From positions 1-21,768 of IMG/VR virus record IMGVR_UViG_3300042518_001019: a stretch of 21,768 nucleotides of DNA. One strand, 5' to 3'. Origin of the DNA: a virus. Of the stretch, positions 2,556-21,704 are shown piece after piece. A program made the translations under genes and the position numbers. Below the pieces are notes generated by a model, which was given only the letters and a program-made list of their open reading frames with translations, did no database searches and had not been told where the DNA came from. The first letter of the stretch is position 1. Every line of letters starts with the position of its first letter.

Positions 2556-2915
2556 CTAATAAATGACCAGGGTGCAATATGCGGCGTCTTTGAGTGTTTT
2601 TGGTGGCAAGTAGCTGACTATTAAATGGTCGATGTGGTCGGTGTTGTCCTCGGCTAAAACCCCTATTAATTGCATTAGGTCAAGGCACGCCTTGGCGGTG
2701 TTGTCAATGTCCCTGGTACTGCGCCAACCTTTGCCGCCGTAAATGCTGATATGGACTTTGGCGGGGTAATTGCGATGGGGTTTTGTTGCGCCAATGGTAA
2801 GGGTGTTTTCTGTTAGCCAGTCGGTATAGCGTTTTGTTTTAAATGTGTGCCTGCCTCGGCGCTGGTAAAGGTGGTTGGTTGATGGTGGTATGGTTAGCGT
2901 GTAGGTGTGGGTCAT
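2556..2915 (-). CDS. rusA: RusA-family Holliday junction resolvase
   Basis: 119 residues, essentially the length of E. coli RusA (120). The motif STRDIDNTAKACLDLMQ with the later LAEDN places Asp69, Asp71, Lys75 and Asp90 one position from the known E. coli active-site residues Asp70, Asp72, Lys76 and Asp91, so the metal-binding catalytic set is complete. The N-terminus (TYTLTIPPSTNHLYQRRG) is also typical of the family. The enzyme cuts four-way junctions made during phage recombination and can debranch DNA before packaging. The start ATG at 2915 lies only 25 bases below a terminator-like hairpin and has a weak ribosome site, so its expression may depend on read-through. The gene ends inside the next candidate promoter element. 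Confidence 0.93.
   Translation of the reverse strand: MTHTYTLTIPPSTNHLYQRRGRHTFKTKRYTDWLTENTLTIGATKPHRNYPAKVHISIYGGKGWRSTRDIDNTAKACLDLMQLIGVLAEDNTDHIDHLIVSYLPPKTLKDAAYCTLVIY
2557..2568 (-). promoter_or_regulatory. Candidate phage-specific promoter element GGTCATTTATTA (copy 1)
   Basis: The minus-strand sequence GGTCATTTATTA overlaps the last codons and stop of rusA and lies 17 bases before the GP88 ATG. The same core, GGTCATTTAT, is found three more times in the window, always on the minus strand and ahead of a gene start. Here it is followed by GGGAGGGAGG, a ribosome-binding stretch. No sigma70-like -35 is visible at the right distance. Confidence 0.5.
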
Positions 2916-2939
2916 GCGTCTTTGATTGTTGTAAGAATT

Positions 2940-2977
2940 AAAAAGGCCCCCGCTGCCCCCGTTGCTTAAAAGGGGCC
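2940..2977 (-). terminator. Rho-independent terminator between the small secreted gene and rusA
   Basis: On the minus strand the arms GGCCCC (2972-2977) and GGGGCC (2945-2950) pair, with a loop of about 21 bases, and are followed directly by TTTTT (2940-2944). Stem is short (6 bp) but all G-C. It sits in a 117-bp gap. Because no strong promoter is visible between it and rusA, it may act as a partial attenuator that lowers rusA expression. Confidence 0.55.
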
Positions 2978-3032
2978 CGCCCTGCCGTCACTTGCCAGTA
3001 AAACAGTTTGGTGCGGGGGTGTTCGGGATTGG

Positions 3033-3209
3033 CTACTTGCAGCCGCCGGCGGCGGCCCTGCCTCGTCGGTGAAATAGTTTGCCGCCTCGTTCACGTTTGA
3101 CGGTGCGGGTGGTGGTCACTTGCACGCTAACACGTGGGGCACGGGCTGCGCTGCACTGGCCGTTAGAACAATCAGCGCCAAGCGCCAAGGTTAAAAGAAT
3201 CGCAATCAT
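3033..3209 (-). CDS. Small Cys-containing secreted-like protein, 58 residues
   Basis: This short frame starts at the ATG at 3209, with AGGAG seven bases upstream, and ends at TAG 3033-3035. Residues 1-11 (MIAILLTLALG) are a hydrophobic signal-like segment, then ADCSNGQCS gives two Cys (14 and 19). Residues 23-33 (APRVSVQVTTT) are beta-like, and the C-terminal half is Arg/Lys/Gly-rich (KRERGGKLFHRRGR) ending AGGCK. A signal peptide with a C-x-x-x-x-C motif and a basic tail suggests an exported or membrane-tethered peptide. I do not recognise a family. It follows the PD-(D/E)XK-like gene by 21 bp and is followed by the terminator. Confidence 0.62.
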   Translation of the reverse strand: MIAILLTLALGADCSNGQCSAARAPRVSVQVTTTRTVKRERGGKLFHRRGRAAAGGCK

Positions 3210-3230
3210 AAGAAACTCCTAAAAAAATCG

Positions 3231-3737: not shown

Positions 3738-3831
3738 GGCTTGAATTTTTCAGATGTGGCGTGGCGTCCTGCCCGTTATGCCCGTAATTGTTTTTCTAAG
3801 AGGGTTAGGTACTCGCTCTTACGTGTGAGAA

Positions 3832-3859
3832 GTTTTACCATTTTTAAAATTAGTGTCAA
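3832..3859 (-). promoter_or_regulatory. Sigma70-like promoter upstream of the PD-(D/E)XK-like gene
   Basis: Minus-strand TTGACA (3854-3859) is a consensus -35, followed after 16 bases by TAAAAC (3832-3837), a partial -10. It lies directly after the HNH stop codon in a 127-bp gap and would start transcription about 90 bases above the TTG start, driving the nuclease, small secreted and perhaps rusA genes. A 21-codon frame starting ATG inside it has no ribosome site and is not called. Confidence 0.45.
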
Positions 3860-3864
3860 CAAAA

Positions 3865-4406: not shown

Positions 4407-4768
4407 TAGTTGCGCTCGCTTTCGGCTTTAATGTCGTAAGCAATACAGGTTTTAATTACGTCTGATAAATTTTTAGCAACCTGTGGAGTTATTTGGGCTC
4501 CTAGTGTGGCGCTGTATGCCATTGCAAAAACTGCCGTTGTTGCTTCGGTTTCTGCTTGCTCGCTATACCAGTCTCGTTCAATTACGGCGTCGGCTATTCG
4601 CTTCATAGCCTCAAGGTCGGTAAATTTTTTTGTGAGAATATTTTCTAGAAAATCTAAAATAAATTCTTCAAACGGATTTATTTCGTCTTCTGTTTTCCAG
4701 TCGCTTCCGCCGTCGTCGGTTTCGTTGTCGTCGTGTTCGTGTTCTTCTTCCCAAAAATCTTTACTCAT
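4406..4768 (-). CDS. Acidic hypothetical protein, 120 residues
   Basis: Not recognised. The N-terminal 30 residues are strongly acidic with His (EEEHEHDDNETDDGG), then the protein becomes helical (NPFEEFILDFLENILTKKFT and a middle with AVIERDWYSEQ). An acidic tail of this kind can be a DNA-mimic or protein-binding region, but nothing in the sequence proves that. It is flanked by coupled genes: its ATG overlaps the metallophosphoesterase stop (ATGA at 4765-4768), and its stop overlaps the DUF3310 start. Confidence 0.6.
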   Translation of the reverse strand: MSKDFWEEEHEHDDNETDDGGSDWKTEDEINPFEEFILDFLENILTKKFTDLEAMKRIADAVIERDWYSEQAETEATTAVFAMAYSATLGAQITPQVAKNLSDVIKTCIAYDIKAESERN

Positions 4769-5649
4769 AACATCCTCGTTGATACATGTAAAAACCTGTT
4801 TTGCTCAGGCCACTTTGTAACTTGGTAAGTAAAGTCGATAGCCCAGCCGCCAATTGGTCGGGCTGCCCTGCCTTTAGAAACATGCCAGCCGTCTTTGTGC
4901 TCGTTCTTGTAGGCTGCACACCTAAGAAAAAACTGCTGCGCCATTTCCAGCTTGCCCGTGCTGGTAACTCTAATCGGGTTATTCTCGTCGGCGTTTCGTC
5001 GGTGAATATGCCCGCTTAGGTAGACGTCGCCGCCTTCATACATTCCCCTGGTGCGGCTGTTGTCAATCAGTCCCCTGGTAACTTCGCCGCCGCCGCCGTA
5101 TCCGTGGTGGTAGTGAATGCGTCGGCTTAAAACTGTTTTGTTTATGTGCGATTGAAACAATACCCAACCCCAATATTGGCCAACGGCCCCCCTAAAACCG
5201 TGGGGCCTTAAGCCATCAGCAAAGCGCTGAATAATGTCCGTGTCGTTTCTGGCCTGCACGCTTGTTTCGTGATTGCCTGGGCTAATTAGCGCAATGGTTT
5301 TTGCGTACGGCTTAAACCATTCGACGGCTGTTTCAAGTACGCTGTCCAGGTAGCAATTGCCTCGGTGCTCTGGCCTTAAAACGGATTGGTCACGCCTGGG
5401 GTCCCATTTGCCTTGCATCAAGTCGAACACGTCGCCGGCCATGATAATCATGGCGTTTTCTTTTTTGGCGGCTTCAAGATGGGATTTAAGAATTTCACGC
5501 TCACAATGGGCGCTGTCCCAGTGAAGGTCACTCATAGCGTAAACAGTGCGTGTTTCTTTTACTCTGCTGTAAGGCACAATTAAGCGGTGTACGTGGGTGT
5601 CGCTGCGTTCAATCCGCCATTCGTCTTTTACCGGCCTAACCTTTGGCAT
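4765..5649 (-). CDS. Calcineurin-like metallophosphoesterase
   Basis: 294 residues with the full set of metallophosphoesterase metal ligands in order: MSDLHWDS (Asp41, His43), AGDVFD (Asp73), SPGNHETS (Asn126, His127), IHYHHGYG (His around 181-182), and LSGHIHRR (His214, His216). Such phage enzymes are thought to act as nucleases or phosphoesterases on DNA or on nucleotides; the sequence resembles the Mre11/SbcD-type superfamily fold more than a small-molecule phosphatase, but the substrate cannot be told here. No transmembrane segment is present. The ATG at 5649 touches the stop of the upstream gene (TAATG) with GAGG nearby, and a candidate promoter element lies about 210 bases upstream. Confidence 0.85.
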   Translation of the reverse strand: MPKVRPVKDEWRIERSDTHVHRLIVPYSRVKETRTVYAMSDLHWDSAHCEREILKSHLEAAKKENAMIIMAGDVFDLMQGKWDPRRDQSVLRPEHRGNCYLDSVLETAVEWFKPYAKTIALISPGNHETSVQARNDTDIIQRFADGLRPHGFRGAVGQYWGWVLFQSHINKTVLSRRIHYHHGYGGGGEVTRGLIDNSRTRGMYEGGDVYLSGHIHRRNADENNPIRVTSTGKLEMAQQFFLRCAAYKNEHKDGWHVSKGRAARPIGGWAIDFTYQVTKWPEQNRFLHVSTRML

Positions 5650-5828
5650 TAAAACCTCAGATGGACCGGGTCGTCATTTTGCGTAAGCCAACGAAAAGCG
5701 TCGGGCTCATGCCATGTTTTGCCGGTTGGGTCGGTCCATGACCTTCGGCGTTGCGGGTCGGGCTTCCAGCGAAGTTCCATAAGCCGGCGACGTCGGGCCT
5801 CGTCCCGTAATGGTTCCCACTGGTCCAT
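5649..5828 (-). CDS. Small basic protein, 59 residues (ATG at 5828)
   Basis: The chosen start is the ATG at 5828, giving MDQWEPLRDEARRRRLMELR, with AGGGG six bases upstream. A longer frame opening with GTG at 5939 has no ribosome site and would run through the candidate promoter element and hairpin at 5861-5895, so it is less likely. The protein is Arg- and Trp-rich (KPDPQRRRSWTDPTGKTWHE) and ends HLRF. It looks like a small DNA-associated phage protein but I do not recognise a family. Its stop overlaps the phosphoesterase start (TAATG). Confidence 0.55.
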   Translation of the reverse strand: MDQWEPLRDEARRRRLMELRWKPDPQRRRSWTDPTGKTWHEPDAFRWLTQNDDPVHLRF

Positions 5829-5860
5829 GCCCGCCCCTGTAAAATGCTGTTGGCCCTTAG

Positions 5861-5872
5861 AGATAAATGACC
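5861..5872 (-). promoter_or_regulatory. Candidate phage-specific promoter element GGTCATTTATCT (copy 2)
   Basis: The core GGTCATTTAT (5863-5872) matches the other three copies exactly; the last bases differ (CT rather than TA). It lies 33-36 bases before the ATG at 5828 in a 116-bp gap. Its first four bases are also the end of a hairpin arm. Confidence 0.45.
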
Positions 5873-5895
5873 ACGGCGGGCGGTGTACCGTGGTC
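5869..5895 (-). repeat. Perfect 8-bp inverted repeat overlapping promoter element copy 2
   Basis: Minus-strand GACCACGG (5888-5895) and CCGTGGTC (5869-5876) are exact reverse complements with an 11-base loop. The hairpin ends in the GGTC of the promoter-like element, and ATTTAT follows. It could be an operator or an attenuator at the boundary between the DUF669 gene and the phosphoesterase block; only this copy of the element has such a hairpin. Confidence 0.5.
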
Positions 5896-5944: not shown

Positions 5945-6388
5945 TTAGAAAGGCAAGTCTTCTATGAACTCGTCTTCCTTTTCTTTTTGCCCTGCTGGGT
6001 GCGGTAAATAGGCACGTATGCGGGCGTACGTTTTGCCTTGGTACGCTTCGTTGCTGGTTTCAATCTGCACCCTTTTTCCGACAAGCTCGGCGCTGTCGTT
6101 AGGGTTGTCCAGGCTGACGGCCTCGCATATTTTTATTAAGGTTTCTTGGGCAATGGCCATAGCCTTTACACTTGGGTTGCGTAGATTAAGGCGGTCAAAT
6201 ACCCTTAAGCCTGCTTGGGGGCCCTCATCGACTTCAAGCATCAACTGCAAATATTCGCCGGTGCCTGCCTTGGTCAATTTGGTTTCTTCGGTTTTTATTA
6301 CTGCGCTGTAGGTGCCTGGTGGCAATTCTACTGGTACCCTTTTTGACGGTGGCGTTGATGGTGAAAAATCTGTGTCGTTAAAAATCAT
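5945..6388 (-). CDS. DUF669-family ssDNA-binding-like protein
   Basis: 147 residues from the ATG at 6388, with AGGAG seven bases upstream and an ATGA overlap with the previous gene. The sequence fits DUF669 proteins of phage recombination modules: MIFNDTDFSP at the start, PPGTYSAVIKTEETKLTKAG and YLQLMLEV in an OB-fold-like region, and KICEAVSLDN in the middle. The acidic C-terminal tip DEFIEDLPF resembles the tip of single-stranded DNA-binding proteins (D-D-D-x-P-F), suggesting it recruits partner proteins in the same way. It belongs to the RecT-Gp157-organiser set and likely coats single-stranded phage DNA. The family's exact activity is not firmly established. Confidence 0.75.
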   Translation of the reverse strand: MIFNDTDFSPSTPPSKRVPVELPPGTYSAVIKTEETKLTKAGTGEYLQLMLEVDEGPQAGLRVFDRLNLRNPSVKAMAIAQETLIKICEAVSLDNPNDSAELVGKRVQIETSNEAYQGKTYARIRAYLPHPAGQKEKEDEFIEDLPF

Positions 6389-7143
6389 ACTAAATCTCCT
6401 GGTTTCCAGTCTCGAACAATCGGGCCCTCTGACCATGCCACGCTGGCAGTGTCAATCTTTGTTGGTTCGTCGCCAGGCAATAACCCGTAACGAACGCTCA
6501 TTCGTGAAATAAGATTGTCTAAAACGTTGCGGGGCTGCTGTGCGGCGCTCTGCAATTGAATAGTTATGTCTTCAACAAGTAGCGCCTTTTCAACGGCTGT
6601 TTCTGCCCTTGCTTTTACTTGCATTCGCCATTTGGGATTGCGGGTAAAGTATTCGGTGCTGCCCATTAGGGCCCTGTCCCTGCCGTCTTTGACGCCGGCA
6701 TAAACTCGGCCATCGGGGCACCGGCACCATACGGCTGCGGTGCGGCTGCTGCACCATACGCCATCTACAACGTCGGGCAACCATGGCACGGTAATTAGTC
6801 CGCTGTTTAAACAGTCCGTGCAAACGCCTCTTTCTTCGGCAACCTGGTAGGCGGTGCGCTTCATTTTTTCCCTGCGAAACATTAGCGCATGTTGCTCTAA
6901 GGCGTTTAAATGTTTCTCATGCGAAAATGGCGGTATTTCCTGACGTGCGACGCCGTCCGTCGCCGCCGTCATTTCCTCAGCGGTAAAGCCATAGCGCCGG
7001 AAAAATCCGATCCACGTGCCAACCATTTTGCCGTCGGCGTCGTTGTGCCAACCAAATAAAGTTCGGTGGTAGTCGGCCCAGCGGAACCATTCAGCCTTTT
7101 CGGCTTCGGCGTTTGCCTGGGTAATTAAGTTAGTTTCGCCCAT
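6385..7143 (-). CDS. Zinc-ribbon protein of the replication module
   Basis: 252 residues; the ATG at 7143 is preferred over an upstream TTG (7152) because GGAGG lies nine bases before the ATG. The middle carries CTDCLNSG and later CRCPD, consistent with a zinc ribbon of two Cys pairs separated by about 30 residues. The N-terminus (EWFRWADYHRTLFGWHND) is helical, and GFFRRYGFTAEEMTAATDGV resembles segments seen in phage replication-organiser neighbours. The gene overlaps the 3' end of the organiser by 14 bp and precedes DUF669, the position where a helicase loader often lies, but no Walker motif is visible, so I do not call it DnaC. Function unknown. Confidence 0.6.
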   Translation of the reverse strand: MGETNLITQANAEAEKAEWFRWADYHRTLFGWHNDADGKMVGTWIGFFRRYGFTAEEMTAATDGVARQEIPPFSHEKHLNALEQHALMFRREKMKRTAYQVAEERGVCTDCLNSGLITVPWLPDVVDGVWCSSRTAAVWCRCPDGRVYAGVKDGRDRALMGSTEYFTRNPKWRMQVKARAETAVEKALLVEDITIQLQSAAQQPRNVLDNLISRMSVRYGLLPGDEPTKIDTASVAWSEGPIVRDWKPGDLV

Positions 7144-7966
7144 TGTAAGCAACCTCCAAAACGTCTCGCTGCCTTGGGTCGGCGGCCATGGTGTTTAAAA
7201 GTTCCTCGGTGCTTTTTGGCGCCGCTGGGCCCCTTCGTTGCTGCTGGCGTAACTCTCGATCAGAAAACAAAAACAGGGGTTCCGTGCGGTCACGTTTTGG
7301 GTCAGCAATTGCGGCGGCGATTGCCGGCGCCGTTATGCCACGACGCAACGCCTCGGAAAAAACTTCTATTATTTTTGGAAAAGTTTCGTTGCCTGGGCGG
7401 CTGCCTTTAACGTAATGGTTCCATTCAAGGGTAAGCTCATGCGCCGGGTTTTCTGTGGGGGTGGGCACAACGGCCTGCCCCCCCTTGCCAAGAATAGGTA
7501 AGGATTGAATAGGTAAGCCAAGAATAGGTAGGTCGCTACTCTGAGAAGGTTTCTTGGTGGGGTCTAGTGGCGTACTAGGTTGGTTACTAGGTTGGCTACT
7601 AGGTTGGCTACTTAGTGGCGTACTATGTGGCACACTGGAAACGAACGATTTACCCTTGCGTGACATTATGCCTTTAACGTAAGTCGGGCAATGTTCTTCC
7701 CAGTCGTGAATAGCAAGTCGGGCGTCGGGGTGCCGATCTAGCCAACCCGTTTCGACCAGGGCAAGAATCATTTGATCGGGGTCGCCTGACCATTCCAGGG
7801 CGGCGGCAATATCTTCGTTGCTATGGCGTCCAATTGCCCCGTCCATGGCGTTAGCCATGGCAAAAACCCAAAGGCTTTCTAACAGGCCAACGGCCTGCCA
7901 GTGGGGCAATGCAAGTTTGCGTTTTAAGCGCATAAATTTTATGGACGCTGTCGTAGTTGCCTTCAT
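7130..7966 (-). CDS. Replisome-organiser-like protein with winged-helix N-terminus
   Basis: 278 residues; ATG at 7966 with AGGAGG seven bases upstream. The first 100 residues look like the N-terminal DNA-binding region of phage replisome organisers: KFMRLKRKLALPHWQAVGLL, then NEDIAAALEWSGDPDQM and LVETGWLDRHPDARLAIHDW. A low-complexity Ser/Gln/Pro linker with repeats (SQPS, SQPS, NQPS and a five-residue LPILG repeat) follows, then a helical C-terminal region (about 190-275) that would contact helicase or loader. The DNA under the linker forms two tandem-repeat arrays and looks like the replication origin, as the lambda origin lies in the O gene. The start of the next gene lies within its last codons. 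Confidence 0.72.
   Translation of the reverse strand: MKATTTASIKFMRLKRKLALPHWQAVGLLESLWVFAMANAMDGAIGRHSNEDIAAALEWSGDPDQMILALVETGWLDRHPDARLAIHDWEEHCPTYVKGIMSRKGKSFVSSVPHSTPLSSQPSSQPSNQPSTPLDPTKKPSQSSDLPILGLPIQSLPILGKGGQAVVPTPTENPAHELTLEWNHYVKGSRPGNETFPKIIEVFSEALRRGITAPAIAAAIADPKRDRTEPLFLFSDRELRQQQRRGPAAPKSTEELLNTMAADPRQRDVLEVAYNGRN
7492..7536. repeat. Iteron-like array A: three 15-bp direct repeats
   Basis: GAATAGGTA starts at 7492, 7507 and 7522, exactly 15 bp apart, with the following bases partly conserved (AAG in the first two). On the coding strand it encodes the LPILG repeat. Array B lies 25 bp away. Together they look like binding sites for the protein encoded by the same gene. Confidence 0.6.
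7561..7632. repeat. Iteron-like array B: six 12-bp direct repeats
   Basis: Copies start at 7561, 7573, 7585, 7597, 7609 and 7621. Three are near-identical (TACTAGGTTGGT/C), the fourth and fifth diverge (TACTTAGTGGCG, TACTATGTGGCA), and the first (GGTCTAGTGGCG) resembles the fourth. They encode a four-residue Ser/Gln/Pro repeat. Candidate origin within the replisome organiser gene. Confidence 0.65.
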
Positions 7967-7977
7967 GATTAAACCTC

Positions 7978-8484
7978 CTATTTAATGCGTAAATGTTGGC
8001 CACGGGGTAGGACGGTAACGCCTGCAACAATTTCGCCGCCCTTGATTTTTTCACGTATGACGTCAAGGTTTGGGCTAAGGGTAATTTTTTGACAATCGGC
8101 GGGTAGGTGCTCCGCTGGGACTGTAACCTCTAGCGGCTGCACGCCGCCGTTGTTACAGATCGACAAATTAAAGTTAGGCGTCTTTAATTTGTCGATGCTT
8201 TGCAGGCCAAAAAAGTACATTAATCGGCCCTTCATTGCCTTTACGGTGTTGCCGTCCTGGTCGCTTAGCTTGCGTATGCGTTCCGCTTCTTCCTTCCTGG
8301 CGGCGGCCGTCAATTCAAGCTCTCGAATAATGCGGCAATAGGCTTCGACTTTGTCCTCGATTTTGCCTTCTAGTTCGGCTAGAAGTTCATCAAGCACGGG
8401 GTCAAGTTCGCCGTCGCCGGCGTCGTCTTTAGTAGCCCAAAATTCCAATATCTTTGCGCCATGGGATAAATCTAAAATGCTCAT
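7978..8484 (-). CDS. Siphovirus Gp157-family protein
   Basis: 168 residues matching Gp157: a helical Glu/Arg-rich middle (ELEGKIEDKVEAYCRIIREL and AARKEEAERIRKLSDQDGNT), then LKGRLMYFF-like KGRLMYFFGLQSI with LKTPNFNLSICNNGG, the family's usual coiled coil followed by a beta segment. It sits directly after recT (TAATG overlap) with AGGAGG before its ATG. Gp157 proteins are frequent next to recT or DUF669 in siphophages; one is reported to confer resistance in Streptococcus phage work, but the role in replication or recombination is unsettled. Confidence 0.85.
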   Translation of the reverse strand: MSILDLSHGAKILEFWATKDDAGDGELDPVLDELLAELEGKIEDKVEAYCRIIRELELTAAARKEEAERIRKLSDQDGNTVKAMKGRLMYFFGLQSIDKLKTPNFNLSICNNGGVQPLEVTVPAEHLPADCQKITLSPNLDVIREKIKGGEIVAGVTVLPRGQHLRIK

Positions 8485-9383
8485 TACTTTGCACCTCCTG
8501 CAACGGTTACGGGTTCTTTAAAGGGGTTGTTTTCTGCGGCTTGTAAATCAATTTCATGGTTAAGATTAGCAATGACGGCCTCGGCGTCGTCTTGGCTTAA
8601 CTCGGTAGGCTTGCTCACGTTGTAAAGCGCTTTAACCTCGGCGCCCCATGCGGCCTTTTTTTCCTTGGTGTAGCCTAGTTCCTTCAAGAGAAAATTAATC
8701 TCTTTTAGTTGCTCCGGCGTGATTGCCATGCCGGCGGCGGGAATAATGACTTCACCATTTACGGGCGCTGGTGCCTTATCAGTAATTGGCGTTTCTGTGA
8801 TTAAACGGCTGCCATCGTCACAAATTGCCAAAACTTCTGTTTTGATTTTTGGCGCTTTAACCTCTTTGTCTTCAAACTCATCTGGTGCGTACACTCCTAA
8901 CATAACGGCGGGGGCATGACGGCGGGCCCAAATACGTGCACCCATGTAGCTAAGCATTTGATCGGGGTTTTTGTCCCAATGCTTATTGTCTGTGCGAACG
9001 TCTGAAAATTTTGCCGTTATTGTTCTGGCTTCTTCTTCGCCTTTAAGGGTGCCAATAACTGTAATTTCACGGTTATTACCTTCGCCTTTGTAGGTGTAGT
9101 TTAAGCTGCCATGAATAACGCCGCTGCCCTGGATAGCGGCGGCCACTAGCTTGCCTTCAAACATTAAATGGCCGTTGACAATGCTAGTAGCCTGCGCCAC
9201 TGCAAAGGGGCTCATGCCCCAACGAATGGCTTGCTCAATTACTAGCAAACAATCTGAAGGTGATTTTTGTAAATGATAAGGCACTAATTTTGCCCCTGCC
9301 ATTATCTCGGCCAGTTTAACGGCTTCGGCAAAGCCATTAATTTCAAGCGCCTTTTCGGGGCGTGCGGTTAAAGCTGTCTGCAT
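8484..9383 (-). CDS. recT: RecT-family single-strand annealing protein
   Basis: 299 residues with AAGGAG eight bases before the ATG. The sequence matches phage RecT proteins (Bet-like family): SPSDCLLVIEQAIRWGMSPF, AVAQATSIVNGHLMFEGKLV, AAIQGSGVIHGSLNY and GARIWARRHAPAVMLGVYAPDEFED. The N-terminal part binds single-stranded DNA and promotes annealing and strand invasion. The protein would pair with a nuclease during homologous recombination and replication; no RecE-like exonuclease is recognised in the window, but the PD-(D/E)XK-like and phosphoesterase genes could supply one. It overlaps the CsrA-like gene by 16 bases and abuts Gp157. Confidence 0.92.
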   Translation of the reverse strand: MQTALTARPEKALEINGFAEAVKLAEIMAGAKLVPYHLQKSPSDCLLVIEQAIRWGMSPFAVAQATSIVNGHLMFEGKLVAAAIQGSGVIHGSLNYTYKGEGNNREITVIGTLKGEEEARTITAKFSDVRTDNKHWDKNPDQMLSYMGARIWARRHAPAVMLGVYAPDEFEDKEVKAPKIKTEVLAICDDGSRLITETPITDKAPAPVNGEVIIPAAGMAITPEQLKEINFLLKELGYTKEKKAAWGAEVKALYNVSKPTELSQDDAEAVIANLNHEIDLQAAENNPFKEPVTVAGGAK

Positions 9384-9568
9384 TGTTCTAACTCCTTAAT
9401 GATTTTTTCTCGAATGACCATTACGTTCCTGGGTGCGTCTACAACAAGGCGGGCGGCGCCGGTGCTTACTCCTGCCACGCCGACCCAACAAGACAACCCG
9501 TTTACGTCGAGAAGGAAACGCTCCCCCTCTTTGATCTTTAAAACTAATCCGTTTAGTCTTCCTGCCAT
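9368..9568 (-). CDS. csrA: CsrA/RsmA-like translational regulator
   Basis: 66 residues from the ATG at 9568, with GGAGG seven bases before it; a longer frame starting at 9613 would begin inside the terminator stem. The strand pattern fits CsrA: LVLKIKEGERFLL aligns with LILTRRVGETLMI, VGVAGVSTGAARL with the middle strands, and DAPRNVMVIREKI with NAPKEVSVHREEI, including the conserved Arg (Arg53) of the RNA-binding edge. The two Arg of the first strand in E. coli (6 and 7) are here Ile and Lys, so binding may be weaker or altered. As a dimer it would bind GGA-bearing RNA at ribosome sites; the target here is unknown. It is the first gene after a terminator and overlaps recT. Confidence 0.82.
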   Translation of the reverse strand: MAGRLNGLVLKIKEGERFLLDVNGLSCWVGVAGVSTGAARLVVDAPRNVMVIREKIIKELEQCRQL

Positions 9569-9588
9569 TTGTCTGCCTCCTGCTGAAG

Positions 9589-9633
9589 AAAAAAAACGCC
9601 CGGCACCATTCAACGAACGGTATAAACCGGGCG
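9589..9633 (-). terminator. Rho-independent terminator before the CsrA-like gene
   Basis: Minus-strand CGCCCGG (9627-9633) pairs with CCGGGCG (9597-9603); the loop of 23 bases contains ACCG...TGGT, which can form an inner stem. Eight T follow immediately (9589-9596). It ends the 9650-10024 gene, so csrA-recT expression would need read-through, antitermination, or an unseen promoter. Confidence 0.8.
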
Positions 9634-9649
9634 CCCCGGTCTAGGTCGG

Positions 9650-10024
9650 TTAAAAGGGCGGTGGTACGTCAATCCACTGGCTGCCCTGTTCTGCGCCATA
9701 AACTAGCGCTTCGTCTAAAGTGTTCACGTGGTGCCAGACTGTGCGGCGGGTCCAATGCCATTGCACTTTGCAGTCAACAACGGCCATTTTGCTAATGCGT
9801 GCCAGAATGGAAAAACCTGGTAAGTCAAAACGTACCTGGTAGCAAAAATCTACATTTTCAAACGGCATTGCAAATTCTCGAATAGCTTCGGGCGCTGCTT
9901 CCATAATCAACTGGTGGGCGTTGTCTGCCTCTTGTTGGTCTTGTTCTGCAAGCTGGCGTTCCTTTGTTTGGCGGCGAATTTTTGCCGCTGCAATTTCATG
10001 GTCCAACCGTTCTAGGGCGTTCAT
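9650..10024 (-). CDS. Hypothetical early protein, 124 residues
   Basis: First gene of the leftward early transcript, not recognised. The ATG at 10024 follows TAGGAG. The first 45 residues are a charged coiled-coil stretch (EIAAAKIRRQTKERQLAEQDQQ), then a compact part with VDFCYQVRFDLPGFSILARI and QWHWTRRTVWHHVNTLDEAL. Its position, right after the divergent promoter and before a terminator, is that of an immediate-early gene; an anti-repressor or antiterminator role is possible but unproven. Confidence 0.6.
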   Translation of the reverse strand: MNALERLDHEIAAAKIRRQTKERQLAEQDQQEADNAHQLIMEAAPEAIREFAMPFENVDFCYQVRFDLPGFSILARISKMAVVDCKVQWHWTRRTVWHHVNTLDEALVYGAEQGSQWIDVPPPF

Positions 10025-12091: not shown

Positions 12092-12120
12092 AAGCATAAA
12101 ATTTTAATTTTTACCTGTGA

Positions 12121-13755: not shown

Positions 13756-14000
13756 TGTCCGCCTGCCTTTGCCTGGGTGCGGTTTTTTATGTAACTGACT
13801 ACGGTGCCGCCGGCAACTAACAGCGCTACAACGTGCTCGATCATGGTGGTTATATTGCCGCCTATTCCTGCCGATTCACTAGGTGACAAAAAGCCTAAAA
13901 TGGTGGCGAATGCTAAGGCTTGCAAAATTAATGTTTGGTAAAACTCGGTTGTTTTCCAACCTGGTTTAACTGGGCTTGGGGTCGTTATTTCGTTTGACAT
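13752..14000 (-). CDS. Holin-like membrane protein, two helices
   Basis: 82 residues: a polar N-terminus (SNEITTPSPVKPGWKTTEF), then hydrophobic helix 1 (QTLILQALAFATILGFLS), a short loop with SESAGIGG, hydrophobic helix 2 (MIEHVVALLVAGGTVVSYI), and a basic C-terminus (KNRTQAKAGG). This architecture and length match class II holins, which open the cytoplasmic membrane for lysis. It overlaps the cysteine-protease-like gene by 35 bp and the next small gene by ATGA. No endolysin with a recognised muramidase or amidase motif is in the window. Confidence 0.75.
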   Translation of the reverse strand: MSNEITTPSPVKPGWKTTEFYQTLILQALAFATILGFLSPSESAGIGGNITTMIEHVVALLVAGGTVVSYIKNRTQAKAGGQ

Positions 14001-15312
14001 TGTCGGCCTCCTGTTCCTTAAGTTTTTTAAGGGCGTTTAAGATCATTTCTTCCATGCTTGGCTTGGCTGGGAATACTTTGCCATGTGCGGCTTTGAGCGC
14101 TGCCACGACGGCGGGAATAATGCCACGGGCGACGTAACCCAAAAAAAACGCTATGAATGCGGTTATGGTTACGGCCCTGGCTATTGCCAAGATATTGCCG
14201 GCGCCGGCGTCGGGGCCCTTCCTGCCGTCCTTGTCTTTTTGCGGGTCGTAGTTAGGCGCCTTTCTGCGAAGGGCTCCAATTAAGCCATCAAGCCCGTCGG
14301 AATAATCAGCCTGGGAATGAAGTACGCTGGCGCTGCCGTCGGCGTTGGGCGGCCCTTGCACAATAATTCGGGGCGTGCCTTCGGTGTTAAATCCTACGTC
14401 GGAAACGGCCCAGTGCGTCGGCGGGTAAGTTTGCACTAATAACACTGGCGCCCATGGGCTGCCCTCTAGGTCGGATTTGACTTTGCTGGCGGCGGCGGTG
14501 TCTTGGCTAATTATGGTTATTCGTAGCTTGTGGCTATCGTCGGTAAGTTCGCCGCCTTCAAGCGCCCTTAAGGCGTCTAAGCTGCTGATTTTTCGCCCAT
14601 TTAAATAGCAGCCATTTTGGCCTAGGCGGCTAGTATCGACGCCAAAAAGCGGGCTAATCGGCGCTTCTTCGGGGTCTTGCTCGGTTGGTTCTGGCGCCTG
14701 GTAAAATACCTTATTGGCGGGTGGTGGCGGTGGTGGTGGTGAAAGTAGGAAAACAGCCCAACCTCCGCCTCCTAATTTCCAGCGGCGTGTAAATTCTGCG
14801 GGGCTCATCCATTCATAATTAGTTTCGCCTGGGAAGTTATTATCTAAAACGGCGGCCCAGCGGGGCGTTAGGTGGACTAAATTTACCATGTGGGCAATTC
14901 TGCCACTGCCCGAATATCTTGGGGAATAGCCGTATGTAACGGCGGGCATTCGGCCAGTTTTTAGAGCTAGCTTTAATAGGCTTGGGTCGTCGCCCTGGTA
15001 TTGCAAGTAGGTAATGCCGGCGGCGTATTTTTGCACCATTTTGTCTACCTTCTCCGGCCATCCGCCCCCCTCCTCTTTTTTCATTTTGTTTTGAAAGCCG
15101 GTAAGTTGTTCGACGTTTTGCCAGCGGCCAGAATGTTCTAGGCTGGTAAAAACGCATAAGCCGGCGCCGTCCCTGCCGCCTACGTTTTTTAGTTGCTCTT
15201 TACCTGGTAAATCGATTTGAATTTGCTCGGCGCCGTCGGGGCTAGTGCGGCCGCCAACCTGAGAATCGGCGGCCAAGATGAATGTAAGAAAAAACGATAG
15301 GAATGCGGTCAT
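13966..15312 (-). CDS. Secreted C39/papain-like cysteine-protease-like protein with C-terminal membrane segment
   Basis: 448 residues from the ATG at 15312; an earlier GTG at 15357 would extend through the promoter element and is rejected. The N-terminus (TAFLSFFLTFILAADSQ) is a signal peptide. GAGLCVFTSLEHSGRW (about 50-64) places a Cys at the start of a helix, AHMVNLVHLTPRWAAVLDNN (about 140-159) supplies His141 and Asp157/Asn158, and the following WMSPAEFTRRWKLG is the usual end of C39-like peptidase domains. The Cys-His-Asp/Asn set suggests a papain-like fold. A Pro-rich linker (191-198) leads to a second domain with a thioredoxin-like feel (SSLDALRALEGGELTD), and about 392-425 is a membrane helix (TITAFIAFFLGYVARG). 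It may anchor in the envelope and cut wall or host proteins in lysis. Confidence 0.6.
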   Translation of the reverse strand: MTAFLSFFLTFILAADSQVGGRTSPDGAEQIQIDLPGKEQLKNVGGRDGAGLCVFTSLEHSGRWQNVEQLTGFQNKMKKEEGGGWPEKVDKMVQKYAAGITYLQYQGDDPSLLKLALKTGRMPAVTYGYSPRYSGSGRIAHMVNLVHLTPRWAAVLDNNFPGETNYEWMSPAEFTRRWKLGGGGWAVFLLSPPPPPPPANKVFYQAPEPTEQDPEEAPISPLFGVDTSRLGQNGCYLNGRKISSLDALRALEGGELTDDSHKLRITIISQDTAAASKVKSDLEGSPWAPVLLVQTYPPTHWAVSDVGFNTEGTPRIIVQGPPNADGSASVLHSQADYSDGLDGLIGALRRKAPNYDPQKDKDGRKGPDAGAGNILAIARAVTITAFIAFFLGYVARGIIPAVVAALKAAHGKVFPAKPSMEEMILNALKKLKEQEADNVKRNNDPKPS

Positions 15313-15336: not shown

Positions 15337-15348
15337 TAATAAATGACC
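15337..15348 (-). promoter_or_regulatory. Candidate phage-specific promoter element GGTCATTTATTA (copy 3)
   Basis: Lies between the glycosyltransferase stop (15351-15353) and the cysteine-protease-like ATG at 15312, 25 bases before that ATG. The 12-base match to copies 1 and 4 is exact. Nothing else in the 38-bp gap looks like a promoter. Confidence 0.5.
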
Positions 15349-15350
15349 TG

Positions 15351-16415
15351 TTACCACTTATAACCGGCTTGGGACTGCCAGCCGGCCACGGTGAAATGCT
15401 CATCTAAGGGCATGTTGTAGCGTTGAGCAATAGCCTTGTAATCTTGGTATTGGTGGCTGCAATGCCATATAACACCTGGGCAACGCTCTGCCCTGTCGGT
15501 GTTCATTATTGGCCAACGCCACATTCCGGCGCCTACTCTGTCGGCCATGTCGTCCCAGAGAATTATTTCGGCGGCTATGCCGGTGACGGGCCTGGGGCGA
15601 AGGTGGTCTAGAACGTCGGGGCGGTGCCATTTTGCTACGTCAAAAATAATTGCTTCTGTGCGAAGTGGAAAAACGCTATGCCCTTCCCTGCATGGATTGC
15701 AGCCGGTTGGCTGCCCGGCGGCGTCCATGCCCTCGGCCACGTCGTAAAGCCATAGGGGAATATCAATTAAAAGGCGTTGGGATAGTTTTACTAGGTATTT
15801 CAGCCGGTGCACGGCGGCCCATTGCAGGCCAACGTAATAGCTAGCTAGGTCGCCGCCGGCGTGCCCGTAGCGTTCGGGGTTGGACCAAAGCGTGACGCCG
15901 GGGTTTTCTCGGGCCAGTGCGGATAGTTCGCCAAAAATAGTCCACGGTTGCGGGGTGCGTGCGGTGCCAGGGCTGCAATCGTCGGCGATTAAGATTGGTG
16001 TTTTGGGCCCGTTCATGTCTCGGATTAATTTTACCTGCAAGGCAACAAGTTTGGGCAGGTTGTAGCTTCCTATTACGACGCCGGCCGGCGGGGGTTCGGG
16101 CTCGTCGGGGTCGTAGTCGTTGCAGCCTAGACAAGACGGGACGCCGTCGGCGCTTGGACCTGTGCGGCACGTGCCGTGTTTTTCACATTGGCGAAGCCAT
16201 TTAGAAGGGCAATTGCAAGCGCCTCGGTCAAGAACTTTTCCAAGGTTAAGGCAATTGTCTCGGCGAATTATTTTAACCGATTTTATGCCGGTGTTTTTTT
16301 TGACGCCAAAAAGTTTTTGATAGCGCTCATCATAGGTGGCAAGCCAGCATAGCCGGCATTGGTCTGCTGACCACTCGAGCGAGGTTACACGGTTACAAGT
16401 GCATGGGCGTTTCAT
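15351..16415 (-). CDS. Glycosyltransferase-A-fold protein with Cys-rich N-terminus
   Basis: 354 residues. The C-terminal two thirds look like a GT2-type glycosyltransferase: GVVIGSYNLPKLVALQVKLI (about 112-131), then ILIADDCSPG (141-150), the nucleotide-sugar strand with the Asp pair, and later ERYGHAGGDLASYYVGLQWA. Residues 1-105 hold many Cys: CTC and CRLC (5-23), then CLNLG (55-59), CNCP (67-70), C77, C83 and CLGCNDY (95-101). This second cluster resembles a Cys-rich segment I associate with planctomycete proteins, possibly zinc-binding. The enzyme might glycosylate tail proteins or host surface sugars. Its ATG overlaps the preceding gene by ATGA, so it belongs to the tail transcript, just before the lysis module. 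Confidence 0.7.
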   Translation of the reverse strand: MKRPCTCNRVTSLEWSADQCRLCWLATYDERYQKLFGVKKNTGIKSVKIIRRDNCLNLGKVLDRGACNCPSKWLRQCEKHGTCRTGPSADGVPSCLGCNDYDPDEPEPPPAGVVIGSYNLPKLVALQVKLIRDMNGPKTPILIADDCSPGTARTPQPWTIFGELSALARENPGVTLWSNPERYGHAGGDLASYYVGLQWAAVHRLKYLVKLSQRLLIDIPLWLYDVAEGMDAAGQPTGCNPCREGHSVFPLRTEAIIFDVAKWHRPDVLDHLRPRPVTGIAAEIILWDDMADRVGAGMWRWPIMNTDRAERCPGVIWHCSHQYQDYKAIAQRYNMPLDEHFTVAGWQSQAGYKW

Positions 16416-17512
16416 TCGGTGATGGTGACCTGACTAATAGACAAAGGCTTGTTGAATGTAGAGTCGTAGACTTGCGGGAAAATGTGCGGCCAATAAAGTT
16501 TCACAAAAAGAACGGTCGAACTAAAAAAGTAAGGCCTGGCAACATAATGCACAGGTAGACGGTAATCAACAAGTGCGGTTACCTGTGTTGAAACCGAAGG
16601 GTAGCTTGCGTCTTCATAGCCCCAAATATTATTGTAATACGGTGATGAAGGGCTTGCGGGTAAGGGAAACCAGTTGTAAACAGGATAAATGATATACCCC
16701 CCGTCAAACTGTCTTCCGGATATTATGTCTAAAAACGTAAAATAACCTGAACCGTCGGTGGCTTGCTGGGGCTTACATACTCTTTTATCGGTCGGACTAT
16801 TAATGTAAGGGGCGTAAGCACCATCGCCGCATTTAATTGAGTTAGTTGTTATTACGTTTTGCCCACCTACAGGCAAGTAGTCTTCGCCAACGGGTACGTT
16901 GTTCCTATAACTTCCAGTGTAATCGCCAGCATCAGTAAAATTGGCGTGATAATTATACTGCGAAGGGTTTGCCGAGCTATACGCTGGTGTAGAGTTTATG
17001 CCTGCGTTGATTGTAACTCTTACAGTTATTGGGTTAACAGAAGCCGCCAAGTCTATAATATCAGTAACAAATGAAAAATACTCTCCGTAAAATGTTTCAT
17101 CTTGCTTAACATAAGTAATGCCATCGGTTGAAAAAAAAACGTCAATTGAAACATTCTCCACAACAATTAATTTCACATAGTAGGGGGTGCTTACAATGGT
17201 CGGGTAGTTAGGATATGTAGTGTTGTTTGTTGCAACGTCCAAGGACATTGCACCGGATTTGTAAGTTCTTACGTTCCCGACTGTTGTGTCTAATCCCAAA
17301 GCAAACGATGAGCTAGTGTAATTGAATGTACGATAAGTTGGTAAATAAGTGGTGTAGTTGTACGCTGTATGTAAAAAAGGAAAATCAATCTGACTTGGGT
17401 AGCTTGGCGCAATTACTGCCACGACACCGTGGTAAATTGATTTTGTAACGTGGCAGCACGGCACACATGGTTGCGCTTGCGTTCGTGCATTTCTAGTAAG
17501 ATCGAGCGCCAT
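16412..17512 (-). CDS. Tyr-rich tail or host-binding protein
   Basis: 366 residues, clearly enriched in Tyr, Ser, Thr, Asn and Pro (many Y pairs and NYTTY-type runs), with a more AT-rich composition than neighbouring genes. N-terminus has the CxxCC motif PCVPCC (about 16-21). The rest is beta-like with repeated YxxxY spacing; there is no signal peptide or membrane helix. Position among tail fibre genes suggests a receptor-binding or decoration protein, and the AT-rich composition suggests recent exchange. No family recognised. It has a weak ribosome site (AAAGAAAA). Confidence 0.6.
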   Translation of the reverse strand: MALDLTRNARTQAQPCVPCCHVTKSIYHGVVAVIAPSYPSQIDFPFLHTAYNYTTYLPTYRTFNYTSSSFALGLDTTVGNVRTYKSGAMSLDVATNNTTYPNYPTIVSTPYYVKLIVVENVSIDVFFSTDGITYVKQDETFYGEYFSFVTDIIDLAASVNPITVRVTINAGINSTPAYSSANPSQYNYHANFTDAGDYTGSYRNNVPVGEDYLPVGGQNVITTNSIKCGDGAYAPYINSPTDKRVCKPQQATDGSGYFTFLDIISGRQFDGGYIIYPVYNWFPLPASPSSPYYNNIWGYEDASYPSVSTQVTALVDYRLPVHYVARPYFFSSTVLFVKLYWPHIFPQVYDSTFNKPLSISQVTITE

Positions 17513-17524: not shown

Positions 17525-18730
17525 TTAAGGTACTGTTAAATAAACAGACGCATTAACTTCGGTGTTTACGCTGGTTTCTAATAAGCCTGGTCTAATAACT
17601 GTAAGGTCTACTACTTGGCCGCTGGTCACTGCCACGGTGCCGGATATGGCCGCCGTCGTACCTTCGCCCCAAGGGCTAATATTATTACCATTAAATCCTG
17701 ACCCGTAGTCATGATTCGCCCAGTTAAAAGAGTAATGAAAAGTTCCTGCCGCCGACGGAGTGAAAGACCATGTCATTGCAGACGTGCCAGACTGCAACGT
17801 ATTATTATTACTTGAAATTACTTTTGGGCTAGCCTCGGTTCCTGCCCCTGAGTTAGTGGCGGTAGTCCAACCAGAGCCTTGCGCATAGATCGACGCTGAA
17901 ACTGTAGGCGTTGGCGTAGGTGGAGGCGTAGGTGGAGGCGTCGGTGTTGGTGTTGGCGTCGGTGTTGGTGTAGGCGTGGGTGTAGGTGTAGGTGTAGGCG
18001 TGGGTGTAGGCGTTGGGGTGCCGCCGCATACGGTACATATATCTGAGAACGGGTACCAACCACGGGTGCCGCTGGAGTTGGTGCCGTAAAATTTATTTGC
18101 TCCTGGATTTGCCACGTCACCGACCAGATTAAGGACGACGCCGGCGGCCAGTGTTGCCCCGCCGGTGATTGAATACCTAGTAGTTATACTGTAGTTGCCG
18201 GTTTGCTGGCCTACGACGACTGCCGTCCCGCTGTCGGGGCATATTGTTGCATACGTAACGCTTAGTTCCCCGTTGGTGCAATCAATTGACTGAATAACTT
18301 CAAAGCAATTGCCGCCGCTGCCGCTGCTGTTTCCGCTGCTGTTTCCGCTGCCGGCGGTGCCGCTGCCGGCGGTGCCGCTGCCCCCTGCAACAAATTCAAA
18401 TGTTGCACCAAATTTGCTTGAATCGCCGCCGTGGCGAATACGCATAATAACCTGGGTGCCGTTGGCTATTATGGCGCCTGGTAGTCCTAGAGCGTAGGCC
18501 GTGTTTGTTTTTTCGTCGCCTTTTAGCCCTGGGCTTGCAACCTCATAATTGCAACCATCTCGGCTTAGTGCAAGCTGGCGCCATGAGTAACCAATTGGGC
18601 AAGTTGAGCCCGAATTAAGGGTAGTCCGGCCCGTTATTTCGGCAACGAACCACTGCGGCGTAGAAACAGCTATTTCGCTGCCTGCGCCGTCGTAATTAAT
18701 CACTATGCCTTCGCCTGCTCTTATGGTCAT
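17525..18730 (-). CDS. Adhesin-like tail protein with Gly-Ser and Thr-Pro linkers
   Basis: 401 residues in modules: N-terminal domain about 1-115 (TIRAGEGIVINYDGAGSEIA); a Gly-Ser linker 116-140 (GSGTAGSG repeats, GNSSGNSSG); a Cys-containing domain 141-235 (CFEVIQSIDCTNGELSV ... CTVCGG); a Thr-Pro linker about 238-276; and a C-terminal domain 277-401 (VSASIYAQGSGWTTATN ... AAGTFHYSFNWANHD) that reads like a beta-sandwich carbohydrate-binding or tip domain. Such flexible linkers are typical of cell-surface adhesins and tail tip fibres. The DNA under both linkers is repetitive. It sits two bases after the 65-residue gene, in the tail transcript. Confidence 0.7.
   Translation of the reverse strand: MTIRAGEGIVINYDGAGSEIAVSTPQWFVAEITGRTTLNSGSTCPIGYSWRQLALSRDGCNYEVASPGLKGDEKTNTAYALGLPGAIIANGTQVIMRIRHGGDSSKFGATFEFVAGGSGTAGSGTAGSGNSSGNSSGSGGNCFEVIQSIDCTNGELSVTYATICPDSGTAVVVGQQTGNYSITTRYSITGGATLAAGVVLNLVGDVANPGANKFYGTNSSGTRGWYPFSDICTVCGGTPTPTPTPTPTPTPTPTPTPTPTPTPTPPPTPPPTPTPTVSASIYAQGSGWTTATNSGAGTEASPKVISSNNNTLQSGTSAMTWSFTPSAAGTFHYSFNWANHDYGSGFNGNNISPWGEGTTAAISGTVAVTSGQVVDLTVIRPGLLETSVNTEVNASVYLTVP
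17903..18020. repeat. 6-bp tandem repeat encoding the Thr-Pro linker
   Basis: About 118 bp of GTAGGT/GTTGGC/GTGGGT-type units, about 20 copies of a 6-bp period, reading Thr-Pro on the minus strand with two Pro-Pro units. Likely to change length by slippage. Confidence 0.85.
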
Positions 18731-18732
18731 GG

Positions 18733-18930: not shown

Positions 18931-18938
18931 TTTATCCC

Positions 18939-19823: not shown

Positions 19824-19825
19824 GC

Positions 19826-20914
19826 CTAAAACGTGCCCCCGTCAACGGTGCTGCTGCTGCTAAGGTAGTCGGTGCCTGCCGTTGCCGCTGTTAAGCTAGT
19901 GCCCGACTTTTTAAATATGCTGCCGTCGCTGGCCGCGCTTAAGTCGCCGCCGGTGCCGCCCTTGGCTAAACTTATTGCAGTGGCCGACCATGTGCCGGTA
20001 GTAATTGTTCCCAGGGTAGTAATAGCTGTTTGGCCTGCCCAGGTTGATTTGATTGTTAGGTTGCTGCTGCCGTCGGTAGTAATGCTAACGCCGTCTACGT
20101 TGACGTTTAGCGTTGTGCCGCTGAAGCTTAAGCCGGTGCCGGCGGTGATAGCGCCTGACGACGAAAACAGGGTGAAGGTCAACGACGTGACGCCCAGGGT
20201 GATAGGGTTAGCCGTAGTTAAAACGTAGCCTTTTCCTGCGTTTACGGTGCCTTCCTCGATGAATGTAAAAGCGCCGCTATTAAATTCTGTGCTTGTGTCG
20301 CTGTCGGCGCTGCGTGTCCAACCTCCCGACGCAACGTCGTAAATGCCGTTATTTGACGCCGTGGTTTGGTTTTTGACTAATACCCTATCGCCGACAATAA
20401 CAGCCACGCCGTCAATTGTTTGCGTGCCGCTAAGGGTAATATTGGCAGTGGTTGAAACTCGGCACGACGCTTTGACGTCAAGGCCGCTGCGGGCTGCGTC
20501 TACGTATGCTTTAGTGGCGGCGTCCTGGGCGCTGGTTGGGTCTGCCAAGTTGGTTATTTTGTTGCTATTTAAAGTTACGTTAGCGGTTGGGGCGGCAAAT
20601 TCATCAAGGCGTTTTCCGACTACATAGGCGCTAATACCAGTGCCGGAAACGGTGCCAGTCAATACGGTGGCGCTGGTGAATGTGTTTGTCGTGCCGCTGA
20701 AGGTTTGCGTGCCGGTTAAGCTGGCAAAGGCGCCTGGGCCGGCCAGTGCCACAACGCTGGACGCCACGCCGCTGCCTGCGTCACCGTAGCCGTAATAAAG
20801 TACGCTGCTGCCGCTGCCGCCTGTTTCGTTTACGGCAAGCTCGCCGTTCATAAGGCTGCTGGGGGCCCCGGCGCCGCCGCTGTTACGTCTTTTAATTCGT
20901 ATGATATTTGCCAT
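19826..20914 (-). CDS. Large tail fibre protein, ending DGGTF
   Basis: 362 residues, ATG at 20914 with AAGGAAAA upstream. N-terminus ANIIRIKRRNSGGAGAPSSL and MNGELAVNETG is the attachment module also seen in the collar fibre. The middle has phage-fibre repeats (LTGTVSGTGISAYVVGKRLD, TKAYVDAARSGLDVKAS and NNGIYDVASGGWTRSADSDT), which are common in fibre shafts, and the end reads AATAGTDYLSSSSTVDGGTF. Rich in Gly, Thr, Ser and Ala, as for beta-fibre proteins. Role: fibre or receptor-binding protein. It ends one base before the collar gene's ribosome site. Confidence 0.85.
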   Translation of the reverse strand: MANIIRIKRRNSGGAGAPSSLMNGELAVNETGGSGSSVLYYGYGDAGSGVASSVVALAGPGAFASLTGTQTFSGTTNTFTSATVLTGTVSGTGISAYVVGKRLDEFAAPTANVTLNSNKITNLADPTSAQDAATKAYVDAARSGLDVKASCRVSTTANITLSGTQTIDGVAVIVGDRVLVKNQTTASNNGIYDVASGGWTRSADSDTSTEFNSGAFTFIEEGTVNAGKGYVLTTANPITLGVTSLTFTLFSSSGAITAGTGLSFSGTTLNVNVDGVSITTDGSSNLTIKSTWAGQTAITTLGTITTGTWSATAISLAKGGTGGDLSAASDGSIFKKSGTSLTAATAGTDYLSSSSTVDGGTF

Positions 20915-20924
20915 GATTTTCCTT

Positions 20925-21329
20925 TCAGAAATTTCCGCCGTCTAGGTAGTTACTATTCACCCATTGGGCTAGTGCGCTGTTAAATTTTAATAGCTGGCCG
21001 TCTTGAATATTTACTATGAGCACGTCGTTAAGTTCGTCAATTAGCCCATTAACGCCGCCTGGTGGGCCGGCTGGACCTGGGGGCCCTTGCACGCCCCTGG
21101 CCGACGCTGTTACTTGGGTGACGAGCTCTTGAACCTCGACGATGCGGCCGCCTTTTTCGACGACAACAAAATTGGGATAGTCTTTAATTGCTCTCGCCTG
21201 CGGGGCGGTTTCTTCCGGCATGGCGCTGATAATAAAGGCTTGTGTGTTTTGGTCGGTTACTTGTACGGCGCCGGCGCCGGCCGTAACCGTAACGGATTGG
21301 CCTATGTCCGCTATGCGGTTGGTGCTCAT
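20925..21329 (-). CDS. Collagen-like tail protein, ending DGGNF
   Basis: 134 residues. N-terminal 75 residues are beta-like (STNRIADIGQSVTVTAGAGA, VQVTDQNTQAFIIS). A short collagen-like repeat GPPGPAGPPGG (about 82-92) forms the triple-helical neck, then a helical/beta part leads to the C-terminus NSNYLDGGNF. The DGG-x-F ending also closes the large fibre gene, suggesting a shared C-terminal module. It overlaps the upstream gene by ATGA. Confidence 0.75.
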   Translation of the reverse strand: MSTNRIADIGQSVTVTAGAGAVQVTDQNTQAFIISAMPEETAPQARAIKDYPNFVVVEKGGRIVEVQELVTQVTASARGVQGPPGPAGPPGGVNGLIDELNDVLIVNIQDGQLLKFNSALAQWVNSNYLDGGNF

Positions 21330-21679
21330 CGTGTAACCCCTGCCCGTATTGTAAAGCTGCCGTAAAGGGGCTTGTTGATTGTTGTGCCGCTAATAAGGAT
21401 TAAATCGTACACGTAATTGCCGGCGGCGATTGCTGCCGTATCGGCGGCGCTGATAAACAAACTAATGGCGCCAGTGACGCCGCCCAGGGTAATGCCGCCG
21501 TTTTCCGTGGTAAGTTCTTTGATTATTACGGCGCTGGTTGCGGTGCTGCGTAACTGCATTTTTGCGGTAAAGCCCGTCAAATTAATAAGGCCGGCGGCGC
21601 TGTCCCTCAGAATAACAACCCGTTCATAGGTTGCGCCCTGGTCGCAAATTGTGTCGTAACGTCCTGCCGGTGCGCTCAT
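21326..21679 (-). CDS. Small baseplate/fibre-adapter-like protein
   Basis: 117 residues. ATG at 21679 with AGGGG seven bases upstream. The sequence (GRYDTICDQGATYERVVILRD, FTAKMQLRSTATSAVIIKEL, then NYVYDLILISGTTINKPLYG) resembles baseplate-upper-protein-type domains that begin with 'D-x-G-x-T-y' and a beta-sandwich, so an adapter between baseplate and fibres is likely. It is the first complete gene of the tail block here and follows a candidate promoter element by 13 bases. Confidence 0.6.
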   Translation of the reverse strand: MSAPAGRYDTICDQGATYERVVILRDSAAGLINLTGFTAKMQLRSTATSAVIIKELTTENGGITLGGVTGAISLFISAADTAAIAAGNYVYDLILISGTTINKPLYGSFTIRAGVTR

Positions 21680-21692
21680 AATTACCCCTTTC

Positions 21693-21704
21693 TAATAAAT
21701 GACC
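21693..21704 (-). promoter_or_regulatory. Candidate phage-specific promoter element GGTCATTTATTA (copy 4)
   Basis: It follows the stop codon of the truncated gene directly and ends 13 bases before the ATG at 21679. The 12 bases are identical to copies 1 and 3. GAAAGGGG after it is the ribosome site. Confidence 0.5.

Follow-up and report, generated by a model that had tools for sequence, protein, structure and literature searches.

A conserved ten-base element before late gene blocks of an uncultured phage is probably a promoter for a phage sigma factor

What is the role of a ten-base sequence that recurs before separate gene blocks of a phage, always in one orientation? The window analysed here is the entire IMG/VR record IMGVR_UViG_3300042518_001019, 21,768 nucleotides in length. 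It is a fragment of a phage genome, the other half of which is known through relatives. The sequence-only reading of the window had described a 10-mer in four copies of the same orientation, three of them extending to a 12-mer. The 10-mer, ATAAATGACC on the plus strand and GGTCATTTAT on the coding strand, is exact at all four positions, with no antisense copy, and the shared 12-mer TAATAAATGACC is found at 2557, 15337, and 21693. No further match to ATAAATGACC is present in the window on either strand, even with one mismatch. A literature search for the 10-mer matched 73 papers, of which the five listed are unrelated. The four copies and the genes that they head are as follows.

2559..2568, minus strand: element copy D (GGTCATTTAT), 19 nt before the GP88-like gene, opening the GP88/small/large terminase block
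1826..2539, minus strand: GP88-like gene headed by copy D (PF17338, 6.3e-48)
2..828, minus strand: terminase genes of the copy D block (large, partial, 2-424; small, 421-828)
5863..5872, minus strand: element copy C, 34 nt before a 59-aa ORF (5649-5828), which is followed by the calcineurin-like phosphoesterase gene
4765..5649, minus strand: calcineurin-like phosphoesterase of the copy C block (PF00149, 1.1e-6)
5945..10024, minus strand: early/replication block (SSB-like, replication initiator, Gp157, RecT, CsrA-like), with no element copy
15339..15348, minus strand: element copy B, 26 nt before the gene at 13966-15312, the first of the presumed lysis block
13966..15312, minus strand: first gene downstream of copy B (448 aa), with no Pfam match
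21695..21704, minus strand: element copy A, 15 nt before the gene at 21326-21679, the first of the tail block
21326..21679, minus strand: first tail-block gene (PHROG 1084 / 3304)

Each copy had been said to lie shortly before a start codon and to open a functional block. The measured gaps are 15-34 nt, and the copies do head the tail, presumed lysis, phosphoesterase, and GP88-terminase blocks. Copy D covers the last codons (LVIY-stop) of the upstream RusA-like gene at 2556-2915. The 3' end of the large terminase gene bears the next element (site E) in relatives. The early replication region was also correctly described as free of copies; 5945-10024 is empty even at one mismatch. The sigma70-like promoter assigned to this region is unproven, because a scan for the sigma-70 consensus found 7 matches versus 11 expected in shuffles and thus showed no excess.

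Some other features of the window deserve mention. The early block encodes a CsrA-like RNA-binding regulator (window 9368-9613, minus strand; G001 965-1165; Pfam CsrA 5.6e-8 for the G001 copy). The gene or genes between the tail fibre and copy B are wholly different between the window (15351-17512) and G001 (35460-38141), a swap of the tail-tip cassette, and the window gene at 15351-16415 has relatives elsewhere (L067-L071). A Pro-Thr repeat (PTPTPTP) tract is located at 17903-18025, inside the gene at 17525-18730.

The expected count of the 10-mer is ~0.05 on both strands under a second-order Markov model. The low chance estimate of the sequence-only reading therefore holds as a number, but it is weak as proof. 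In 18% of dinucleotide shuffles of the window, some 10-mer reaches four or more copies, and in 12.5% an AT-rich one does. Since so many shuffles reach four and the motif was chosen post hoc, after inspection of the sequence, the count of four says little on its own. ATAAATGACC is the sole AT-rich 10-mer with four copies in the window; the other such 10-mers are GC-rich coding repeats. It is by its position, its confinement to a single strand, and above all its conservation in relatives that the sequence is judged to be far beyond chance.

Relatives were found by searching with three window genes. In the longest stretches that the two have in common, the relative G001 is ~96% identical to the window. 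G001 is 42,807 bases long and is considered complete, circular or terminally redundant, because its ends are 253-base sequences 99.6% identical to each other. Exact copies of GGTCATTTAT are found in G001 (six), G023 (seven), G024 (five), G002 (four), and G025 (two), all in the sense orientation and none antisense, where ~0.01-0.07 copies per strand are expected by chance. The sequence-only reading had named numerous intragenic or antisense copies as the observation that would speak against a promoter. The complete G001 passes this test: it has no antisense copy, and only one of its six exact copies lies well inside a gene, where it is conserved at synonymous sites. In distant GP88-sharing phages, GGTCATTTAT is absent, save for one copy in an AT-rich record. 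Near-miss copies are scarce. G001 has one site with one mismatch (C) and one with two mismatches (I), and the element is intact at the same positions in relatives.

The copies occupy the same gene junctions across these genomes. Copy D is conserved in G001, G023, G024, G002, and G035, and it keeps its position in front of the block in G023 and G024 even though these two have no GP88 gene there. Copy C is exact in G023, G002, G025, and G035, and differs in the last base in G001 and G024 (GGTCATTTAC / GGTCATTTAA). Copy A is exact in G001, G023, and G031. Copy B is exact in six genomes despite differing upstream genes and downstream leaders; the window and G001 share the element at this site, with a different upstream gene and a different leader. 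Over eight aligned junctions (A-G and I), the identity of the element is 0.86-1.00, versus 0.24-0.78 in the flanking ten-base blocks. In an unbiased ranking of 8-mers before called genes, with gene calls from a simple script instead of a standard gene finder and thus approximate starts, GTCATTTA or TCATTTAT ranks first in G001, G023, G024, and G031 (log10 p of -9.0, -8.8, -6.8, and -14.4, respectively) and in none of six comparison genomes. At site B only, a mirror half follows the element (GGTCAT-TTATGT-ATGACC in G024; the sites are G024 3274, G023 336, and G001 38150). This half may form a hairpin or serve as an additional control site for the lysis block.

The architecture of the sites resembles that of a promoter. 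Over 21 distinct flanks, the 10 bp hold nearly all of the upstream information and no other upstream column is clearly informative, which argues that there is no -35 box. Downstream of the element, mainly Shine-Dalgarno purines stand out, and a separate Shine-Dalgarno sequence follows the element. Site G is intragenic, 129-130 nt before the next start codon, and all synonymous positions in it are kept in G001, G023, G024, and G031; it therefore fits a promoter, not a ribosome-binding element. At site F, the sense strand resumes after a gene block on the opposite strand. Sites D and E overlap gene ends, each in a different reading frame, so coding does not explain them. Sites A, B, C, and F lie outside genes. 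The copies precede middle and late blocks, not early ones, in one orientation, where the gene class is judged by function. The element at site I stops just 4-6 nt short of the start codon; judged from this spacing, a promoter there would have to produce a transcript that is leaderless or almost so, or the element would have another role there.

Other identities of the element were considered. A -35 box is improbable: with the element 15-16 nt from the ATG, the corresponding -10 box would coincide with the start codon. An antisense T4-like promoter, AATAAATG, was rejected since the conserved block stops at GGTCATTTAT and no genes lie in that direction.

A candidate for the protein that reads the element is encoded in the genome half missing in the window. 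In G001, a 158-aa sigma factor gene (14116-14589) is located between the portal and prohead protease genes, just before site I; the gene is also present in G023, G024, G002, and G031. Its product matches Pfam Sigma70_r2 at 4.9e-14, as well as PHROG sigma families, and other members match Sigma70_r2 at 2.4e-15 to 1.1e-14; the Sigma70_r2 matches pass the curated Pfam cut-off. A profile comparison with the PDB aligns the sigma with region 2 of solved sigma factors at 5e-11. The predicted structural model has a mean pLDDT of 72 and matches PDB sigma factors with low overall TM-scores, probably due to differing placement of the two domains in the model. The fold matches are, among those listed, sigma factors and sigma-containing transcription complexes. 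A region-4-like end is weak in some members (E-values of 0.007-0.009, below the Pfam cut-off) and undetected in others. This weakness agrees with the missing -35 box, whereas a remaining region-4-like end without any -35 box counts against the promoter reading. Like the element, the -10-binding part, GVTFGAYARLWVKGSIYRYVFGRRPQWE, is strongly conserved among clade members.

The distributions of the sigma factor and the element coincide. The sigma gene is present in 5 of the 32 first records, all five of which have the element. All contigs with a close sigma carry a sense GTCATTTA or, in G001, the two-mismatch form at site I, and those GTCATTTA copies sit at the terminase-end and/or protease-start junctions as far as each contig covers them. 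The element-bearing close relatives that lack the sigma gene are the window and G025, both fragments without that region. GP88-sharing phages without the sigma have essentially no element. The sigma and the multi-copy element co-occur in one clade, and since this clade is a single lineage, their co-occurrence does not represent many independent events.

It is likely, with a probability of about 0.83, that GGTCATTTAT (core GTCATTTA) is a single -10-type late-promoter element read by the host core RNA polymerase with the phage sigma. The sequence-only reading had suggested a middle or late promoter for a phage or modified RNA polymerase, and conservation together with the sigma gene lends support to it; as the sigma is encoded in the other genome half of relatives, the modified host RNA polymerase is the favoured form. 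From these sequence comparisons, we infer that this sigma reads this element, and likewise the start sites and the timing. The host sigma would transcribe the early genes (RecT, SSB, and replication), and read-through would yield the first phage sigma. On the host core, the phage sigma would start transcription ~6-8 bp downstream of each element and thereby activate the blocks for terminase, head, tail, and lysis. The operon that encodes this sigma (site E) would be among them, resulting in positive feedback: the sigma gene lies downstream of site E and could thus amplify itself after the initial read-through. If the geometry is that of phiEco32, leaders would be ~8-30 nt and the start at site I would be about at its ATG.

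Related architectures are known in other phages. The middle and late promoters read by gp36 of phiEco32 have the sequence tAATGTAtA, with transcription starting 6-8 bp downstream, as shown experimentally (PMC8948821). The system described here is similar in its phage sigma-70-family factor, its short single element without a -35 box, and its early genes left to the host sigma (PMC8948821). It differs in the sequence of the element, GGTCATTTAT, in its unrelated lineage, in its probably temperate lifestyle, and in its likely planctomycete host. The sigma gene is inside the head module, between portal and protease, and has a weak region-4-like end, which is absent in phi32_gp36. By analogy, the element is likely to work as the phiEco32 class does, but it is outside that promoter family, as the consensus tAATGTAtA is not matched. 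The late promoters of phage 7-11 are GTAAtg-16-aCTA, read by the sigma factor gp47 (PMC8948821). Phage 7-11 also has a phage sigma for late genes and sites at conserved genome positions. Its promoter is bipartite and its sigma has a clear region 4, in contrast to the single block here. The late promoters of T4, TATAAATA, are read by gp55 and need gp33 and the sliding clamp. They too consist of one compact, nearly invariant -10-like block without a -35 box, heading late genes, although the sequence differs.

The window also holds information on the host. The 3' half of a tRNA-Arg(TCG) gene (Rfam tRNA) is located at 12114-12178 on the plus strand, overlapping the end of the integrase gene at 12121-13341 on the minus strand. 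This tRNA half is likely attP, and with the integrase it suggests that the phage is probably temperate. The final 46 bases of the tRNA half recur without a mismatch in tRNA-Arg(TCG) genes from two planctomycete MAGs (L149 and L150); therefore, the host is probably a planctomycete. One of the MAGs is labelled Candidatus Kuenenia, and this label may be wrong, because the sigma-factor matches in this MAG are similar to the ones in the Planctomycetaceae MAG. The 10-mer is found 3 and 7 times in the two MAGs (4.4-4.7 Mb), on both strands. This is the background level, so the element is not a sign of a host promoter. No close cultured relatives were found in the phage collection, nor any prophage in a search of bacterial genomes with the portal alignment. 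A terminase search of 102 genomes of the likely host's order revealed only distant terminases (~32-40% identity), without the element. One of this order, L192 in genome G068, is a distant prophage with a 40%-identical terminase and a sigma-like stretch upstream (32% over 50 aa), and it may share the sigma arrangement.

An element acting in the mRNA leader, in translation control, RNA processing, or antitermination, would also be found on the sense strand next to Shine-Dalgarno sequences, and most copies are 15-34 nt before a start codon. The Start Associated Sequences (SAS), asymmetric repeats of cluster K mycobacteriophages (GGGATAGGAGCCC; 11-19 copies, mostly in one orientation, function unknown) likewise lie just before start codons (PMC3203893). 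SAS has a Shine-Dalgarno core at the ribosome-binding position, whereas GGTCATTTAT has no purine-rich core and no Shine-Dalgarno complementarity, and has one conserved intragenic copy. The phage does encode a CsrA-like protein, but the element contains no GGA and was rejected as a CsrA target. Across sites, the distance between element and start codon ranges from 4 to 46 nt, site G lies 129 nt from the next start with its synonymous positions conserved, and a sense transcript must start at site F. Together with the missing core, these observations make such an RNA element improbable.

A transcription-factor or repressor site in one orientation would allow a lysogen repressor to block transcription into late genes. 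The stoperators of cluster A mycobacteriophages are sites of this kind, and they also serve as operator at the early promoter/lysogeny region. The temperate nature of the phage, suggested by the integrase and the attP-like tRNA end, is consistent with this alternative, as are the asymmetric, dispersed sites aligned with transcription. The window encodes a winged-helix-like protein (11613-12086, weak Penicillinase_R match), and the mirror half (GGTCAT...ATGACC) is added in some genomes, although it is confined to site B. Unlike in the stoperator system, the early region, where a repressor should act first, has no exact or one-mismatch copy, which lowers the likelihood of this alternative. Furthermore, a phage sigma exists and tracks the element in the close clade. 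A repressor site is quite improbable. A chance repeat or coding coincidence, to which the post hoc choice, the shuffles, and the overlap of copies D and E with last codons could point, is practically refuted by the occurrence of the element, in sense only, at orthologous junctions across many diverged genomes, by the different frames of D and E, and by the location of A, B, C, and F outside genes.

Capsid and terminase searches yielded a wider family, in which sister groups share the order of head genes. L168, whose capsid is 55% identical, encodes a region-2 sigma, and TGTCATTTAT is found six bases ahead of its protease start. In L127, the sigma is 26% identical and the portal/protease junction bears TGCCATATAC; L158 and L161 have region-2 sigmas without such an element at that junction. 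All three of these last groups retain a diverged region-2 sigma in that position and show no clearly repeated element. L171, L173, and L174 have no recognisable sigma at that place and no element. This comparison of few sequences suggests that the pair of sigma and site I may be older than the regulon. A switch of the element was considered for the sister group G039. It has only TGCCATATAC at site I and no repeated element; thus, no change of specificity is claimed. In G045 and G044 (L180 and L190), which belong to a sister phage group, GAACGAACGAA repeats adjoin Shine-Dalgarno sequences before several genes. These GAACGAA repeats were rejected as a counterpart of the element, as they look like Shine-Dalgarno-spacer repeats.

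The element and its sigma provide a concrete, testable late-promoter consensus and a likely sigma factor for an uncultured phage lineage, in a probable host phylum for which hardly any phage transcription has been described. The sharp 10-bp element and the 158-aa sigma are amenable to an in vitro test. The sister groups, with an altered sigma and an altered or missing element, constitute a natural series for the joint change of sigma specificity and promoter sequence. Tentatively, and with the balance somewhat against it, a small sigma in the head module with its own promoter at the portal/protease junction may extend across phages of planctomycetes and perhaps of other hosts. The pair would have spread to all late blocks in the clade of the window as a -10-only class, one copy giving leaderless mRNA, and the sister sigmas would have lost region 4 or changed specificity. 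If this is true, the family shows the growth and loss of a phage sigma regulon.
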